Shown here piece by piece: positions 32,574-39,574 of a stretch of DNA of 64,000 nt. Within the stretch, counting starts at the first letter, position 1. The number at the start of each line of letters is the position of its first letter. The DNA comes from Haloplanus salinarum (GTDB lineage: Archaea; Halobacteriota; Halobacteria; Halobacteriales; Haloferacaceae), in NCBI RefSeq assembly GCF_024498175.1, contig NZ_CP101823.1, forward strand, positions 1,922,001-1,986,000. The letters are read 5' to 3'. The translations under genes and the position numbers were made by a program. Under the pieces are notes generated by a model, which worked only from the letters and a program-made list of their open reading frames with translations, ran no database searches and was not told where the DNA came from.

Positions 32574-32942
32574 TTATTCCAGCGGTGCGACGAGTTCGAC
32601 GACGTGCCCGTCCGGATCCTCGATGAAGGCGGTGCGCGCGCCGGCCGCGGGCTGGTCGCCCGGTTCCTCGACGACGCCGTAGTGATCGACCGTCTCGAAA
32701 ACCTCGTCCACGTCGTCGACGCCGAGGGCGAGGTGGTCCCAGGCGGTCCCCGCCTCGAACTCCGTCTCGCCGTCGGTCTCGGAGAGCTGGATCTCGACGC
32801 CGTCGGGGTCGGCGACGTACCGGTTCTCCGTCTCGCCGTCGGGCGTCTCGAACGACCACGACTCCTCGAAGCCGAACTGCTCGTAGAACTCGATCGACTC
32901 GTCCGCGTCGGCGACGTTCAGACAGACGTGAATCAGGTTCAT
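32574..32942 (-). CDS. VOC-family (glyoxalase-like) protein
   Basis: ATG at 32940-32942 gives 122 residues. MNLIHVCLNVADADESIEFY and EDPDGHVVELVAP are the two beta-alpha-beta-beta-beta halves of a vicinal oxygen chelate domain, with a His and two Glu as likely metal ligands. Close families include lactoylglutathione lyase and dioxygenases; haloarchaea have many such proteins with unassigned substrates. Confidence 0.82.
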   Translation of the reverse strand: MNLIHVCLNVADADESIEFYEQFGFEESWSFETPDGETENRYVADPDGVEIQLSETDGETEFEAGTAWDHLALGVDDVDEVFETVDHYGVVEEPGDQPAAGARTAFIEDPDGHVVELVAPLE

Positions 32943-33154
32943 CGCGTCTCCGACACGCCCCGCCGCGGACAAAAAGATGTCTGAACGGGGCAGACCACCC
33001 GGGGGTCCGCCACGCGACCCCGAGCAGTGTGTCGATTCGCGGAATCGTGCGTGGTCGTTCGTGTAGGATTCTGTCGGTCGCGGCAATTATTCAGACATCA
33101 CGTTCAGATAGACTGCAAGACGGCGACGGGGCGCTCAGAGACCGTAGCGTAGGA

Positions 33155-33184: not shown

Positions 33185-36100
33185 ATGGCCATTGATGAAC
33201 GATCAACGGAATTAGAGACCTCGGCGGACTCCCTGGGGCACGACCACCCCGACGCCGAGGAGTATCGGGCACTGGCCGAAGACCTCCGCGAAGGCGTGCA
33301 GGGGGACGTCTCCTTCGACGAGTACGCGCAGGTACTCTACGCGACGGACGGGAGCATCTACCAGGCCAAGCCCGCGGGAGTCGTGTTGCCACAAACGGTC
33401 GACGACGTGAAACACACCGTCGAGACGGCGGCCGAACACGGCGTGCCGATCCTGCCCCGAGGCGGGGGGTCCTCGCTCGGCGGACAGACGGTCGGGCCGG
33501 GTTGTGTCGTCGTCGACTTCACGCGGTACATGGACGACATCGTCGACGTCGACCCCGAGGGACAGCGCGCGGTCGTCCAGCCCGGCGTCGTCCAGGACCA
33601 CCTCGACAACCGGCTGGAAGACCACGGTCTGAAGTTCGCACCGGATCCGGCGTCCTCGAACCGTTCGACGGTCGTCGGCGGCATCGGCAACAACTCCACG
33701 GGAGCACACTCGGTGCGGTACGGCATCACCGACGCCTACACCGAGGAACTCGACGTCGTGCTGGCGGACGGGTCGCTGATCCACACCGAGGAGGTCGTCC
33801 TCGACGGCGAGGAGTGGGAGGAGAAGGTTTCCGGTGACGGTCTGGAGGCCCGGATCTACGAGACGACTCGCCGCCTCGTCGAGGAACACGAGGAAGAGAT
33901 CGAGGAGAAGTATCCCGACCTCAAACGGTCCGTGTCGGGGTACAACCTCCAGAAGGTCATCTACGAGAACGACGCGGGCGAGGAGGTCATCAACCTCTCG
34001 AAGCTCTTCGTCGGCGCGGAGGGGACCCTCGGCGTCATCGTGGAGGCCGAGGTGTCGCTGGTCACCCTGCCCGAGGAGACGGCGCTCGTCCTCTACTGCT
34101 TCGACGACCTCGTCGAGACGATGCAGGCCGTTCCCGAGGCACTCGAGTTCGACGTCGGCGCCGTGGAGTTGATGGACGACGAGGTGTTCCAACTCGCCGC
34201 CGACTCGACGGAGTACGCCCAGTACGTCGAGATGATTCCCGAGGGGACGAAGGCGGCGCTGATGCTGGAGTTCGACTCCGAACTCGTCGACGACTTCGAG
34301 GCGGCCATCGCGGAGACGAACGACTACTTCGTCGAGAACGGCGACGCCTTCCACGCCATCGAGGCCTACACCGAGGAAGACCAGGCCGACATCTGGAAAC
34401 TCCGCAAGGCCGCTATTCCCCTGCTCATGGGGATGAAAGGCGACCCCAAGCCGTACCCGTTCATCGAGGACGCGACGGTGCCGCCCGAGGAACTGTCGGA
34501 GTACGTCTTCGAGTTCGAGGAGGTCCTGGAGGATCACGGCACCTCCGCGGCCTACTTCGCCCACGCCGGGAGCGGGACGCTCCACATCCGACCCATCCTC
34601 AACCTCAAGGACGGGGAGGGCATCGAGAAGATGCACTCGATCACCGAGGACGTTACCGACCTGGTGCTCGACCACTACGGGTCGTTCTCGGGCGAACACG
34701 GCGACGGGATGGCGCGGACGGAGTTCAACCCCAAGATGTACGGGGACGAACTCTGGACCGCGTTCAAGGAACTGAAGACGGCGTTCGACCCCGACTGGCA
34801 TATGCACCCGGGTAACGTCGTCTACCGCGAGGGGCCGGAGGATATCGGTCCCGATTCGGAGCGGGGCGTCAACGCCGACATGCGCGAGAACCTGCGCTAC
34901 GGCGCGGACTACCAGTCGGTCGAGCCCCAGACCGCGCTCGACTTCGAGGACGAGGGTGGCTTCTCCCATCTCGTCGAACTGTGTAACGGCTGTGGCACCT
35001 GCCGGCAGACGGACTCGGAAGTCATGTGTCCGACCTACCGGGCCAGCAAGGAGGAGATCCAGACCACCCGCGGCCGTGCGAACATGCTCCGGGCGGCGAT
35101 CAGCGGCGAACTCGACGAGGACGAGATCTACTCCGATCGCTTCCAGGAGGAGGTCATGGACCTCTGTGTCGGCTGTAAGGGCTGTAAGAGCGACTGCCCG
35201 ACCGGCGTCGACATGGCGAAACTGAAGACGGAGGTCAAACACCAGTACCACCAGGAGGAGGGTGTCAGCCTCCGCGAGCGGGTGTTCGCGAACATCGACA
35301 CGCTCTCGAAGGTCGGCTCGATGCTCGCGCCCGTCTCCAACATCGCGCCCAAGATTCCGGGCGCGCGCAAGGTGATGGAGGAGGCCATCGGCATCTCGAG
35401 CGAGCGCGAACTGCCCACCTTCGCGAGCGAGAGCCTCGAAGCCTGGTTCGAGCGCCGCGGCCGCTGTCAGATGGCCCCGAGCGACGCGGAGGATCAGGTG
35501 TTGCTCTTCCCCGACACCTACACGAACTACATCTACCCCGACGCCGGGAAGGCGGCCATCGAGGTGCTCGAGGCGGCGGACGTCTTCGTCCGCATCCCCG
35601 AGGACGTTGCTCCCTCCGGGCGTGCGGCCTTCTCGTCGGGGATGCTCGATCTGTGCCGCGAGCGCGCCGAGCGGAACGTCTCGGCGCTGCGGGAGGCCGT
35701 CGACGACGGCTGGTCGGTCGTGTTCATCGAGCCCTCGGACGCCGTCATGTTCCAGGACGAGTACCGCGACCTGCTCTCGGGATCGGCCGTCGAGGCCGTC
35801 GCCGACGCCGCCTACGGAGTCATGGAGTACGCCGACGTGGCCGGACTGCCCGAGTCGGTCGAGTTCGCCACGCCCGAGCAGTCGCTGTCCTACCACGGCC
35901 ACTGCAACCAGAAGGCGACGAACAAGGACCACCACGCCCTCGGCGTCCTGCAGGGTGCGGGCTACGACGTCGACCCGCTCAACACGACCTGCTGTGGGAT
36001 GGCGGGCTCCTTCGGCTACCACGAGGAACACTACGACATCTCGCAGGCCATGGGGAACCTGCTGTTCGAGGAAGTCGAGGAGAGCCCGGGCGATCAGGTG

Positions 36101-36193
36101 ACTGCACCCGGGGCGTCGTGTCGCTCCCAGCTCGGCGACGAGTACGACGACCATCCGCCACACCCGGTCGAGAAGCTCGCGGACGCGCTGTGA
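33185..36193 (+). CDS. dld: Fused FAD/Fe-S oxidoreductase (D-lactate dehydrogenase type)
   Basis: A 1002-residue three-part protein. The FAD-binding PCMH domain (about 55-235, LPRGGGSSLGGQTVGPG) and the FAD-oxidase C domain (about 260-545, SGEHGDGMARTEFNP) match GlcD/D-lactate dehydrogenase. Then come two 4Fe-4S sites, CNGCGTCRQTDSEVMCP (near 600) and CVGCKGCKSDCP (near 660), and CCG-type sequences HGHCNQKAT (about 903) and NTTCCGMAGSFGYH (about 933). The fusion couples 2-hydroxyacid oxidation to an electron-transfer chain; D-lactate is the most likely substrate, glycolate the alternative. The next gene overlaps the stop by one base. Confidence 0.85.
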   Translation: MAIDERSTELETSADSLGHDHPDAEEYRALAEDLREGVQGDVSFDEYAQVLYATDGSIYQAKPAGVVLPQTVDDVKHTVETAAEHGVPILPRGGGSSLGGQTVGPGCVVVDFTRYMDDIVDVDPEGQRAVVQPGVVQDHLDNRLEDHGLKFAPDPASSNRSTVVGGIGNNSTGAHSVRYGITDAYTEELDVVLADGSLIHTEEVVLDGEEWEEKVSGDGLEARIYETTRRLVEEHEEEIEEKYPDLKRSVSGYNLQKVIYENDAGEEVINLSKLFVGAEGTLGVIVEAEVSLVTLPEETALVLYCFDDLVETMQAVPEALEFDVGAVELMDDEVFQLAADSTEYAQYVEMIPEGTKAALMLEFDSELVDDFEAAIAETNDYFVENGDAFHAIEAYTEEDQADIWKLRKAAIPLLMGMKGDPKPYPFIEDATVPPEELSEYVFEFEEVLEDHGTSAAYFAHAGSGTLHIRPILNLKDGEGIEKMHSITEDVTDLVLDHYGSFSGEHGDGMARTEFNPKMYGDELWTAFKELKTAFDPDWHMHPGNVVYREGPEDIGPDSERGVNADMRENLRYGADYQSVEPQTALDFEDEGGFSHLVELCNGCGTCRQTDSEVMCPTYRASKEEIQTTRGRANMLRAAISGELDEDEIYSDRFQEEVMDLCVGCKGCKSDCPTGVDMAKLKTEVKHQYHQEEGVSLRERVFANIDTLSKVGSMLAPVSNIAPKIPGARKVMEEAIGISSERELPTFASESLEAWFERRGRCQMAPSDAEDQVLLFPDTYTNYIYPDAGKAAIEVLEAADVFVRIPEDVAPSGRAAFSSGMLDLCRERAERNVSALREAVDDGWSVVFIEPSDAVMFQDEYRDLLSGSAVEAVADAAYGVMEYADVAGLPESVEFATPEQSLSYHGHCNQKATNKDHHALGVLQGAGYDVDPLNTTCCGMAGSFGYHEEHYDISQAMGNLLFEEVEESPGDQVTAPGASCRSQLGDEYDDHPPHPVEKLADAL

Positions 36194-36576
36194 TGAGCGA
36201 GAGAACGTTCACCGTCACTGTCGACGGCACGGCGGTCGGGGCCACGTGGGCCGACGAGAGCCCCGAGACGCGCCGAGCGCTGGCCGACGCGTTCCCGCTC
36301 GAAGGTGAGGCCACCCGCTGGGGCGACGAGCTCTACTTTCGCGTCCCGGCCGACGTCGGCGCCGAGGACCCGCGGGCGGCGGTCGAACCCGGAGCGATAG
36401 CCTACTGGCCACAGGGGCCGGCGCTCTGTCTGTTCTGGGGACCGACGCCGGCGAGTACGGATTCGACGCCGCGGGCCGCGTCGCCGGTGAACGTCGTCGC
36501 CCACCTCGACGATATCGCTCCCTTGTCGGTCCTCCCGAGCGGTGCCGGCGCGACGGTTCGCGTCGCCGACGACTGA
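36193..36576 (+). CDS. Cyclophilin-like DUF3830 family protein
   Basis: The ATG overlaps the preceding TGA by one base (TGATG), a coupled start. The 127-residue product TFTVTVDGTAVGATWADE through EPGAIAYWPQGPALCLFWGP has the all-beta layout of the cyclophilin-like DUF3830/YKR-type proteins. These may bind small ligands; no peptidyl-prolyl isomerase site is evident. Cotranscription with the lactate-type dehydrogenase suggests a helper role, but nothing in the sequence proves it. Confidence 0.7.
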   Translation: MSERTFTVTVDGTAVGATWADESPETRRALADAFPLEGEATRWGDELYFRVPADVGAEDPRAAVEPGAIAYWPQGPALCLFWGPTPASTDSTPRAASPVNVVAHLDDIAPLSVLPSGAGATVRVADD

Positions 36577-36789: not shown

Positions 36790-38523
36790 ATGACAGATAC
36801 CCACGACGAAAAACGAGTCGAAACCGACGGTGGTCTGACGGAGGACGACGTCCACACGACCGCCGAAGTCGGTGAACAGTATCGTGCGACGGTGTACCGG
36901 GACGTCGACTACGACGACCTCGAGGTGGCACCCGAGACGAGTGAGTACCCGAGTACGGACGGCAAATGGGGCTTCCGGAAATACGACATGCCGAAGGTCC
37001 CGAAAGTGTCCCACCTCGTCGGACCGAGCGCCATCATGCTCGGTGCGTCGCTCGGGAGCGGCGAGACGATGTTCTGGCCGACGCTGGTCGCCCAGAACGG
37101 GTGGGGCCTGTACTGGGCCTTCTGGGTCGGCGTCATCACCCAGTTCTTCATCAACACGGAGATCCAGCGCTGGACGATCGCCACGGGCGAGAGCATCTTC
37201 CGGGCGTTCGACCGGATGAACAGCTTCTGGCCGTGGTTCTTCCTCGTGGCCGGCTTCTTCCACGTCGGGTGGCCCGGCTGGGCGGCCGGCGCGTCGGAAG
37301 TACTGGCCGTCTGGACCGGGATCGTTCCCCGCGGGAACTGGGCCGTCATCGGCGTCGCGACGATGATCCTGATCTGGCTCAGCTACCAGGCCGGACCGAT
37401 CCTGTACAACGCCATCGAGAAGGCCCAACTGATATTGATGTTCGTCGCCATCTTCGGCGCGGTGATCCTGGCCTTCATCGCCGGCTCGGTCGGCCAGTTC
37501 GCCAACATCCCTGCCGGGGCCGTCAACTTCGGCGCGCTCCCGCAGGACATGGACATCGCAACCTTCCTCGGCGGCCTCGCGTACGCGGGCGCCGGCGGGT
37601 ATATCAACCTCGCACAGGGCATCTGGGCCCGCGAGAAGGGGTACGGCATGGGTACCTACCAGGGCCGGATCAAGAACCCCCTCCGCGGCTCCGAGCCCGA
37701 GGAGGTCCACGGCGGCTTCACCTTCGAGCCGACGAAGAAGAACCTCCTCCGCTGGAAGCAGTGGTGGAAGGTCACCCAGCAGGAGCACTTCCTCACCTTC
37801 GTCCTCGGTCTGCTCATCGTCGCGACGGTCGCGATGACTATCTCCGCCGAGTACGCCAGCGGGACGGATCAGGGCGCCATCAACATGTGGCTCGACGTGA
37901 TCATCCCGCAGCTGGGCGCGCTGCAGGCCCAGCTGATGTACGCGGTGATCTTCATCGCCCTGTTCAGCACCCAGTACGCCATCCTCGAGGCCTTCGTCCG
38001 CAACAGCGTGGACATCATCTTCGAGGGGTACGGCCGCGGTGCCGGGTGGGACCTCTCGCGGGTCTTCCTCGCCCTGCTCACGCTCTTCACGCTGTGGGGC
38101 ATCCTCATCATCGTCGCCCAGTTCCAGCAGCCGTGGATCCTGCTGGTCATCGGTGCCGCCATCGCCGGCGCGATGATGTGGCCGTACAACGCCTTGGTGA
38201 CCATCCTGAACACGACGCGACTGCCCGAACACACCCAGCCCGGCTGGGGCCGCATCATCGCGATGTGGTGGGCGACCGGCTTCTTCGGGTACTTCACCGT
38301 GCTGCTCATCGGTGGCGTGCTCACCTCGCCGGAGTCCTACGGGCTGAACTTCCCGGCCTTCGAGACGACGGTCGGTGTCGTCGGGAGCGGCCCGGCCGGC
38401 TACGCGCTGTGGGTGTTCGCGCTCGTCGTACAGATCTACACGATGTATCGCTCCGCGACCGGGAAGATGAACGCTTCCGGCACCGTCGAGGGGTCGGAAG
38501 ACGCGCGCGGCTTCCTGTCGTAA
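36790..38523 (+). CDS. Nramp-like membrane transporter without metal-site motifs
   Basis: A 577-residue protein with a hydrophilic N-terminal tail of about 75 residues and 11-12 helices. The overall sequence fits the Nramp (LeuT-fold) family: GPSAIMLGASLGSGETMF is the first helix. The classic DPGN of helix 1 reads GSGE, and the helix 6 MPH is replaced in GGLAYAGAGGYINLAQ. Those residues bind Mn/Fe in Nramp, so this carrier probably moves something else or uses a different site. Its position after the D-lactate-type cluster suggests an organic acid, as inference. Confidence 0.75.
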   Translation: MTDTHDEKRVETDGGLTEDDVHTTAEVGEQYRATVYRDVDYDDLEVAPETSEYPSTDGKWGFRKYDMPKVPKVSHLVGPSAIMLGASLGSGETMFWPTLVAQNGWGLYWAFWVGVITQFFINTEIQRWTIATGESIFRAFDRMNSFWPWFFLVAGFFHVGWPGWAAGASEVLAVWTGIVPRGNWAVIGVATMILIWLSYQAGPILYNAIEKAQLILMFVAIFGAVILAFIAGSVGQFANIPAGAVNFGALPQDMDIATFLGGLAYAGAGGYINLAQGIWAREKGYGMGTYQGRIKNPLRGSEPEEVHGGFTFEPTKKNLLRWKQWWKVTQQEHFLTFVLGLLIVATVAMTISAEYASGTDQGAINMWLDVIIPQLGALQAQLMYAVIFIALFSTQYAILEAFVRNSVDIIFEGYGRGAGWDLSRVFLALLTLFTLWGILIIVAQFQQPWILLVIGAAIAGAMMWPYNALVTILNTTRLPEHTQPGWGRIIAMWWATGFFGYFTVLLIGGVLTSPESYGLNFPAFETTVGVVGSGPAGYALWVFALVVQIYTMYRSATGKMNASGTVEGSEDARGFLS

Positions 38524-38577: not shown

Positions 38578-39015
38578 ATGGCATCCCAGACGCAGTCCCC
38601 GGACCGTCCGCTCGGGACCCTGTTGCGGTTGCTGGTCACCTATCGCCTCTTCATCTATCTCGGCGGGCTGATCGCCATCGGCGTGCCGCTTTTCCTCCGG
38701 CGGGCCTACGGCACGGAGCTCTCTCCGGGCGCTCGCACGGCCATCGTCGTCGTGAGCCTCGGACTGATGATCGCGACGTACATCGGCGAACGCCGCGTGG
38801 GCCGCGACCACGTCGACGCCGAAACCGGCGAGTCGACGGAGTCGTACTCGCTGCGTCTGCGGGCGTCCATCGCGACGGCCGTCGTCGGCCTCGCAATCGG
38901 CATCTACGTCGTCATGGAAGTCAACCCGCTCACGGGGGCCTTCTTTATCATCGGTGCGTTCCTCTTTGCCTACATGGGGTACCGAACCGAACGGGAGGGT
39001 GCGAATGGCGTCTGA
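38578..39015 (+). CDS. Membrane protein, unknown, four helices
   Basis: The ATG at 38578 gives 145 residues; an upstream TTG is unlikely. Hydrophobic segments lie at about 24-42, 58-76, 98-114 and 119-135, with a charged C-terminus (YRTEREGANGV). The 3' end overlaps the next gene by 11 bases, so they are probably coexpressed. No family is recognised. Confidence 0.65.
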   Translation: MASQTQSPDRPLGTLLRLLVTYRLFIYLGGLIAIGVPLFLRRAYGTELSPGARTAIVVVSLGLMIATYIGERRVGRDHVDAETGESTESYSLRLRASIATAVVGLAIGIYVVMEVNPLTGAFFIIGAFLFAYMGYRTEREGANGV

Positions 39016-39574
39016 AGCCGGGGGCGCCCCCGACGCCGAGCTCGACGAGTCGGACCTGGAGGTCGACCTCGACGAGTTCGACGACCTCCCTACGACCGAC
39101 ATCGAGACCGAACTTCACGTCCACTTCGGGATGGCCGGCTCCTTCCCGCTGCGGATGGCCGACATCTTCTTCGCGAGCGACGGGCTTCACCTCGCCGAGT
39201 ACAGCTACATCACGCCCATGTTCGGGCTGGGGACGAAGAAACACCGCCGCGAGGCCAGCGCGATGCAGGAGATTTACGAGGTCCACGGCCTCGACGAGGT
39301 GCTGTTGCAGGCCGACACCGTCTACTGGTTCAACTACGAGGGGATCGACCGCGTGGTGCTCAACCGCGGCGGCCGCTTCGGCCGGCCGAAGCTCACCGTC
39401 TACCCGGCCGACGAGGGGGCCCGATCGAACGCCTACCGACTCCACGAGAACGACGACACGGACGCCCTCGCCGCCGAGTTGCGCGAGGTCGCCGAGGGCC
39501 GACCCTTCGAGGTAGTCGTCGAATCCGGCTGGGGGTTCGCCCCGCGCGAGAACGTCCAGCGGTTCTTCAGTTAG
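39005..39574 (+). CDS. Conserved-looking soluble protein, unknown
   Basis: The ATG at 39005 gives 189 residues starting MASEAGGAPDAELDESDLEV. An acidic tail is followed by a compact alpha/beta region (HVHFGMAGSFPLRMADIFF, EYSYITPMFGLGTKKHRR). The gene overlaps its membrane-protein neighbour at the 5' end and a convergent gene at its 3' end by eight bases. Function unknown. Confidence 0.65.
   Translation: MASEAGGAPDAELDESDLEVDLDEFDDLPTTDIETELHVHFGMAGSFPLRMADIFFASDGLHLAEYSYITPMFGLGTKKHRREASAMQEIYEVHGLDEVLLQADTVYWFNYEGIDRVVLNRGGRFGRPKLTVYPADEGARSNAYRLHENDDTDALAAELREVAEGRPFEVVVESGWGFAPRENVQRFFS

Follow-up and report, generated by a model that had tools for sequence, protein, structure and literature searches.

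Nramp (SLC11) proteins form a well-studied family of metal carriers, in whose canonical members, MntH among them, the metal is held at the breaks of helices 1 and 6, where the motifs DPGN and MPH lie. The loss of these motifs in Nramp-related groups is already published and is not new here: a 2026 preprint (PMC12873925) describes Nramp-related proteins with neither DPGN nor MPH and, in its available sections, counts the Nramp-related groups as uncharacterized save an NRMT-like one and that of MntG. For PxpT, an NRAMP family protein 50% identical to YcsG, the accessible text of PMC13274462 reports that deletion of the gene abolishes growth on 5-oxoproline and that the defect is complemented, and Shin et al. 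2014 (PMC4072509) propose, in the portion available, that the outgroup may link carriers of nonmetal substrates with those of divalent metals. A Haloferax volcanii strain with ludBC deleted is impaired in growth on rhamnose, a sugar from which pyruvate and lactate are formed (PMC8305020, accessible part). A report of a lactate-linked Nramp was not found among the matches listed in the open-licence PubMed Central literature.

Here, we describe an Nramp-related carrier of a Haloplanus-type haloarchaeon, with a genome of one 3.45-Mb contig, that has lost both motifs and recurs beside YdiJ, LctP and LudBC/LutABC in loci of differing gene order. Its gene lies in a stretch of 64,000 nucleotides that was analysed as a whole and is called the window below.

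An Nramp-related protein with a predicted LeuT fold

The carrier gene (36790..38523, + strand; ATG start codon) encodes a membrane protein of 577 aa of what we call the window type; its nearest named match, from Haloplanus ruber, is 93% identical, and identities to 15 other haloarchaeal sequences range from 57 to 93%. Homology to Nramps is based on a profile and on the fold. The NCBIfam model NF037982 matches the carrier with 270 bits (E 3.7e-80; cut-off 50), and the structure model, built from 16 sequences (mean pLDDT 59.7, pTM 0.64), finds its top VIA matches in human NRAMP1 (Z 29.8, 424 residues, 4.6 Å), DMT1 (29.2) and DraNramp (27.8); ranks 1–9 are all Nramp, NRAT or NRMT proteins (Z 29.8–24.9), EleNRMT reaches 24.9, and APC carriers come close behind (SLC7A10, 24.8). 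Ordered by Foldseek E-value, chains of NKCC1 take ranks 1–3 and Nramps follow from rank 4, the TM-scores of DraNramp being higher. With the moderate confidence that such a model allows, we consider the LeuT fold of the carrier closest to the solved Nramps, and this is how the comparison with Nramp and other LeuT-fold groups suggested in the first-pass annotation of the window came out.

Other searches gave no match: no Pfam family at all, PF01566 included, was found in the carrier at E <= 1, phmmer returned nothing from the PDB sequences at E <= 10, and hhalign of our alignment A1 against E. coli MntH and against AdiC was not significant (probability 0.1 for both) because A1 is too shallow (Neff 1.8). 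With the profile and fold matches present and DPGN and MPH absent, the carrier is therefore Nramp-related, a member of the Nramp superfamily in the broad sense, but carries neither of the motifs that mark a canonical Nramp. NF037982 is an "equivalog" model with the 50-bit cut-off given above and labels many noncanonical proteins "divalent metal transporter"; among the six Nramp-like proteins scanned with it, the best score, 487 bits, belongs to a Lut-linked protein of Rubrobacter. The label "Nramp family divalent metal transporter", given by this model and in plasmid records, is probably wrong for the lactate-linked branch.

The host genome (G000) holds five Nramp-related proteins (L001, L002, L029/L050, L049 and that of the window), none of them with DPGN or MPH; the two that PF01566 matches best have AAGPAT and FGSGSV at helix 1. 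L001 and L002 were considered as canonical Nramps and rejected, since neither has DPGN or MPH; as far as these sequences tell, the genome may be without any canonical Nramp. Its third Nramp-like gene (L050, 8948-11411) reads GGGE at helix 1 and stands directly before a DUF2891 gene.

Motifs in place of the metal site

Aligned with E. coli MntH, the carrier has G89-S90-G91-E92 (37054..37065, + strand), at the break of helix 1, opposite DPGN and G269-G270-Y271 (37594..37602, +), in helix 6, opposite MPH, while the stretch after helix 6 carries RWxxWW (37750..37767, +), which we use as the signature of the subfamily. The model has helix 1 interrupted at residues 88–94 and helix 6 at 268 and 273–276, at or next to the motifs, with low confidence at the helix breaks themselves (pLDDT <50 in 89–93 and 267–278). 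With A1 as the query and E <= 1e-60 as the limit, 55 carrier copies were found in 48 of the 292 haloarchaeal genomes of the class that were searched. GSGE, AGAGGYxNLxQ and RWxxWW are kept in all 55, and DPGN and MPH occur in none; a pattern this constant is therefore no local accident. The first-pass annotation had read GSGE for DPGN and AGGY-type residues for MPH, and had called the known metal site absent; the MntH alignment and the 55 copies agree with it on the loss of both motifs.

Assigned by best tblastn query, 12 of the 55 copies are of the window type and 43 of the paralogue type; the host genome holds one of each, 55% identical. A broken copy at L048 (422 aa called, two tblastn pieces) was left out of A1 and of the tree. 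The tree has many long branches, and the sole joining that we use from it is that of three bacterial members, from Rubrobacter (the Lut-linked protein), Aureimonas and Nonomuraea, with the haloarchaeal set (support 100/99). The same three are the only ones with AGAGGxxNLxQ among 17 other rows of the Nramp superfamily, and RWxxWW is likewise theirs (3/17); the Rubrobacter member is 31% identical to the carrier, with an hhalign E of 1.7e-56. Sequences of Peribacillus, Mesobacillus, Ketogulonicigenium and Rhodococcus, which are possible stand-ins for YcsG/PxpT and not true YcsG or PxpT, form a separate clade with long branches.

The carrier's GSG at the break in helix 1 is similar to that of amino-acid carriers (AdiC GNIMGSGVFLLPANL). 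In such carriers, the GSG loop holds the carboxylate of the substrate. The likeness is a hint only, because the distance from GSG to the next proline differs, five residues in the carrier and four in AdiC.

Genes around the carrier

Upstream of the carrier lies a fused FAD/4Fe-4S/CCG 2-hydroxyacid dehydrogenase of the YdiJ type (33185..36193, + strand; 1002 aa), for which the best NCBIfam model is YdiJ, at 536 bits and under its cut-off of 1350. The first-pass annotation had seen a fused dehydrogenase of the D-lactate type at this place, and the fusion is borne out by the Pfam domains FAD_binding_4, FAD-oxidase_C, Fer4 and CCG. A second gene, which it had described as DUF3830-like, is instead PF04126 (Cyclophil_like; 98.7 bits, cut-off 27), with no DUF3830 match at E <= 1: this small cyclophilin-like protein (36193..36576, +; 127 aa) has an ATG that overlaps the dehydrogenase stop codon by one base, and its gene separates the dehydrogenase from the carrier at the loci of the same genus as well as at L034. 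Divergent from the dehydrogenase is a VOC/glyoxalase gene (32574..33086, − strand; PF00903) of 170 aa at most, or about 122 from an inner ATG, which scores 54 bits against GloA, under the cut-off of 165. A VOC gene is present in 17 of 29 window-type rows, some of which are the same locus twice, the match at L040 being weak; its divergent position next to the window-type YdiJ suggests methylglyoxal as a possible source of D-lactate.

Directly downstream of the carrier follow c3 (38578..39015, +), a small conserved hydrophobic protein of 145 aa (alignment A3), and c2 (39005..39574, +), a soluble protein of 189 aa with a weakly PH-domain-like model, the best fold matches of its predicted structure including hSac2, SSRP1 and Vps36. 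The Pfam scan gave no accepted family for either, and a Cation_efflux score of c3 (16.5 bits, cut-off 26.6) was treated as chance. Across a first set of 28 loci, which includes some loci fetched twice, c1 (the YdiJ-type or a related FAD/Fe-S gene) is present at 23, c2 at 22 and c3 at 17; c2 also stands beside 34 of the 55 copies.

Linkage to lactate genes

Counting as neighbours all genes within 10 kb, and taking as the sample all 55 copies of the class search, we found YdiJ, LctP or LudB next to 52 copies, namely all 12 of the window type and 40 of the 43 of the paralogue type. YdiJ of either type is near 47 of the 55, LctP near 37 of the 43 paralogue-type copies and none of the 12 window-type ones, and LudB near 22/43 and 2/12, respectively; the three copies with no such neighbour are those of G031 contig 3, G092 and G149 (contig edge). 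Outside this sample, no such neighbour was seen at L041, L046 (near a contig end) and L058, and of five haloarchaeal plasmid copies opened, four have an FAD/Fe-S gene beside them and one, from Halomicrococcus, has no lactate-type neighbour in the 12.5 kb seen. In a set of 60 relatives, YdiJ lies within 10 kb of 21 of 23 carrier copies. With 110 YdiJ matches, the relatives average about two such genes per genome, yet YdiJ, LctP and LudB were found in none of 20 arbitrary 20-kb windows drawn from six genomes, and the locus of the host genome's third Nramp-like gene likewise gave 0/1. As the 55 copies are related, these counts overstate the number of independent events, and Fisher's p of 2e-15, which treats the copies as independent, is not to be read as a probability; when the copies are pooled into 15 classes of genus and type, 14 of these contain one or more linked copies.

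The order of the genes varies, and at least five distinct arrangements occur around the carrier (ARRANGEMENTS). YdiJ may precede it, with or without the cyclophilin-like gene in between; the carrier may be followed by c3 and c2 with YdiJ downstream (L038, L042); in the second copy of the host genome (L049), an HTH gene, the carrier, LudC and LudB are divergent from LctP and YdiJ; and an HTH gene, the carrier and c2 may converge either on YdiJ and LctP or on LudB, LudC and LctP. In two genomes (L123, L124), a window-type carrier lies behind a paralogue-type YdiJ, which diverges from LudC and LudB. Among the bacterial relatives, the Rubrobacter gene converges on LutCBA and has a gene with a lactate-racemase domain about 5.5 kb away, and the Aureimonas member has isocitrate lyase about 0.6 kb away and, as far as its surroundings were seen, no lactate genes; for Nonomuraea, whose sequence carries no annotation, neighbours were listed only, so that of the three bacterial loci, lactate genes were seen in Rubrobacter alone.

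The dehydrogenase is found with and without the carrier. The 60 relatives hold 34 YdiJ genes of the window type (identity of at least 63%), and within 10 kb of these, the carrier was found 11 times, LctP 4 times, both together never and neither 19 times; three genomes of the host genus (G004, G005, G011) have kept YdiJ and the cyclophilin-like gene with the carrier absent there. The dehydrogenase therefore does not need the carrier, which is thus an optional uptake part beside YdiJ. Beside the 19 YdiJ genes that lack both carrier and LctP, no constant replacement transporter was seen. Three genomes (G001, G007, G015) have the window-type carrier and no LctP match, and none of the 12 genomes of the host genus is without both, these being too few genomes for the count to carry meaning.

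The more distant Nramp-like loci come from a selection among plasmid hits, which is not free of bias. Such genes adjoin UxaA in Rubrobacter and Haladaptatus and hydantoinase A/B in Haloferax, Haloarcula and Haladaptatus; in Mesobacillus, one lies beside a CoA-transferase and a thiolase, and in Rhodococcus beside an amidase. A haloarchaeal Nramp-like group with GPGT at helix 1 (L073, L074, L079) is found directly before hydantoinase/oxoprolinase A and B and is preceded by a CopG-type regulator. No clear neighbour link was seen for the Nramp-like genes of Peribacillus, Roseomonas, Azospirillum, Ketogulonicigenium and Deinococcus.

Proposed function and alternatives

The metal motifs are lost and the usual place of the gene is beside lactate enzymes; we therefore regard import of a lactate-like acid as probable, and our favoured reading, held with fair though not strong confidence, is that the carrier is a LeuT-fold importer of lactate or a similar 2-hydroxy acid. 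It belongs to the noncanonical part of the Nramp superfamily and there probably to one of the "G-motif" groups (PMC12873925, as available), a likeness that we infer from the name of the group and not from the motif letters of that source. The carrier would work as a secondary carrier of LeuT fold with alternating access, its inward transport presumably driven by Na+ or H+, and would bring in lactate or a close relative among the short 2-hydroxy acids, for example glycolate; D- and L-lactate are both possible. The substrate would be the acid that the neighbouring enzymes oxidise, the codirectional YdiJ-type FAD/Fe-S dehydrogenase then turning it, for example, from lactate to pyruvate. Within the protein, the acid would be bound at the breaks of helices 1 and 6, and the GSG loop would replace the metal ligands at the helix 1 break and may, by analogy with AdiC, hold the carboxylate of the acid. 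Against lactate import speak the 19 window-type YdiJ genes with neither carrier nor LctP nearby, the carrier copies that have no lactate-type neighbour, and the presence of LctP beside 37 of the 43 paralogue-type copies, next to which a second lactate importer looks redundant.

The first-pass annotation had placed the carrier in a nonmetal branch, perhaps for organic acids. The neighbourhood linkage and the precedent of PxpT favour this, while the argument from the loss of DPGN and MPH does not stand as proof by itself, given EleNRMT, YcsG/MntG and MumT. The best surviving alternative, to which we give a minor yet real chance, is indeed an importer of divalent metal, Fe2+ or Mn2+, with an unusual site, supplying the Fe-S or other metal enzymes in the operons. 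Many of the neighbours are iron-sulphur proteins, YdiJ and LudB carrying Fe-S domains, and an iron importer would therefore fit too; moreover, in the accessible parts of the respective papers, deletion of MumT, from a urea operon of Acinetobacter, lowers cellular Mn (PMC5050338), overexpression of YcsG raises it (PMC10448178), and EleNRMT, with a changed site, carries both Mg2+ and Mn2+ (PMC8806188). Set against this are the absence of DPGN and MPH from all 55 copies and the repeated company of LctP, which is not a metal enzyme, beside the paralogue-type ones. The more distant Nramp-like genes next to thiolase/CoA-transferase and amidase argue in the same direction, as does PxpT, which is genetically tied to an organic acid, even if its authors, in the available text, keep metal transport possible (PMC13274462).

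It is less probable still that the carrier moves another organic anion of the pathway, such as pyruvate, acetate, 2-hydroxyglutarate or a sugar-acid fragment, or that it exports one. YdiJ, whose NCBIfam model comes nearest to the dehydrogenase, albeit far under the cut-off, is a 2-hydroxyglutarate enzyme, and isocitrate lyase in Aureimonas and UxaA next to the second, more distant Nramp-like gene of Rubrobacter would suit such a substrate, but LctP, LudBC/LutABC and the lactate-racemase domain all indicate lactate. That the neighbourhood is inherited gene order only, with a carrier role unrelated to it, seems very improbable: copies within a genus mostly share their order, but different genera, a bacterium among them, keep the partners despite different arrangements, and the 20 control windows held none of them.

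Beyond the lactate-linked branch, there is a broader conjecture, which we put forward tentatively and consider rather doubtful as a whole. The noncanonical Nramp groups could be mainly carriers of organic acids, with branches for lactate, for 5-oxoproline (PxpT) and beside UxaA, hydantoinase A/B and thiolase plus CoA-transferase; the glycine motif that these groups have at the helix 1 break would bind the carboxylate, the DPGN/MPH metal site of MntH, DMT1 and NRAMP1 would have evolved from such a site, and the changes in Mn seen with YcsG and MumT would be secondary or reflect a side activity. If the substrate is nonmetal, the carrier would show how a well-studied family of metal carriers may have arisen and would give the haloarchaea, some of them with no LctP match, a new candidate importer of lactate. 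The lactate linkage makes the question of the substrates of the Nramp outgroup testable.

Comparison with known systems

The lactate permease LctP takes places comparable to those of the carrier beside YdiJ and LudBC but is of the Pfam family PF02652, whereas the carrier has no Pfam match at E <= 1. With the canonical Nramps (MntH, DMT1, NRAMP1, DraNramp), it shares the LeuT fold, the VIA matches having Z of 25–30 over about 370–430 residues; it differs from them in being without DPGN, MPH and a PF01566 match and in having the conserved RWxxWW stretch. The magnesium carriers EleNRMT/NRMT resemble it in their noncanonical site and in fold (Z 24.9), but their site reads DxxG-TxxA/T in the accessible part of PMC8806188, against GSGE and GGY in the carrier, which has no Asp at the first position. 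There is also a likeness to the G-motif groups, YcsG/MntG included (PMC12873925), and to PxpT (PMC13274462), which, as far as the available texts go, are Nramp-related and have lost the metal motifs. Neither the scanned neighbours in the window nor the genes annotated around five haloarchaeal plasmid copies include any pxp gene. PxpT has 436 aa, compared with 577 in the carrier, which has an N-terminal tail and a conserved loop; and while PxpT is linked, in the accessible text, to 5-oxoproline genes, the branch described here is linked to lactate genes.
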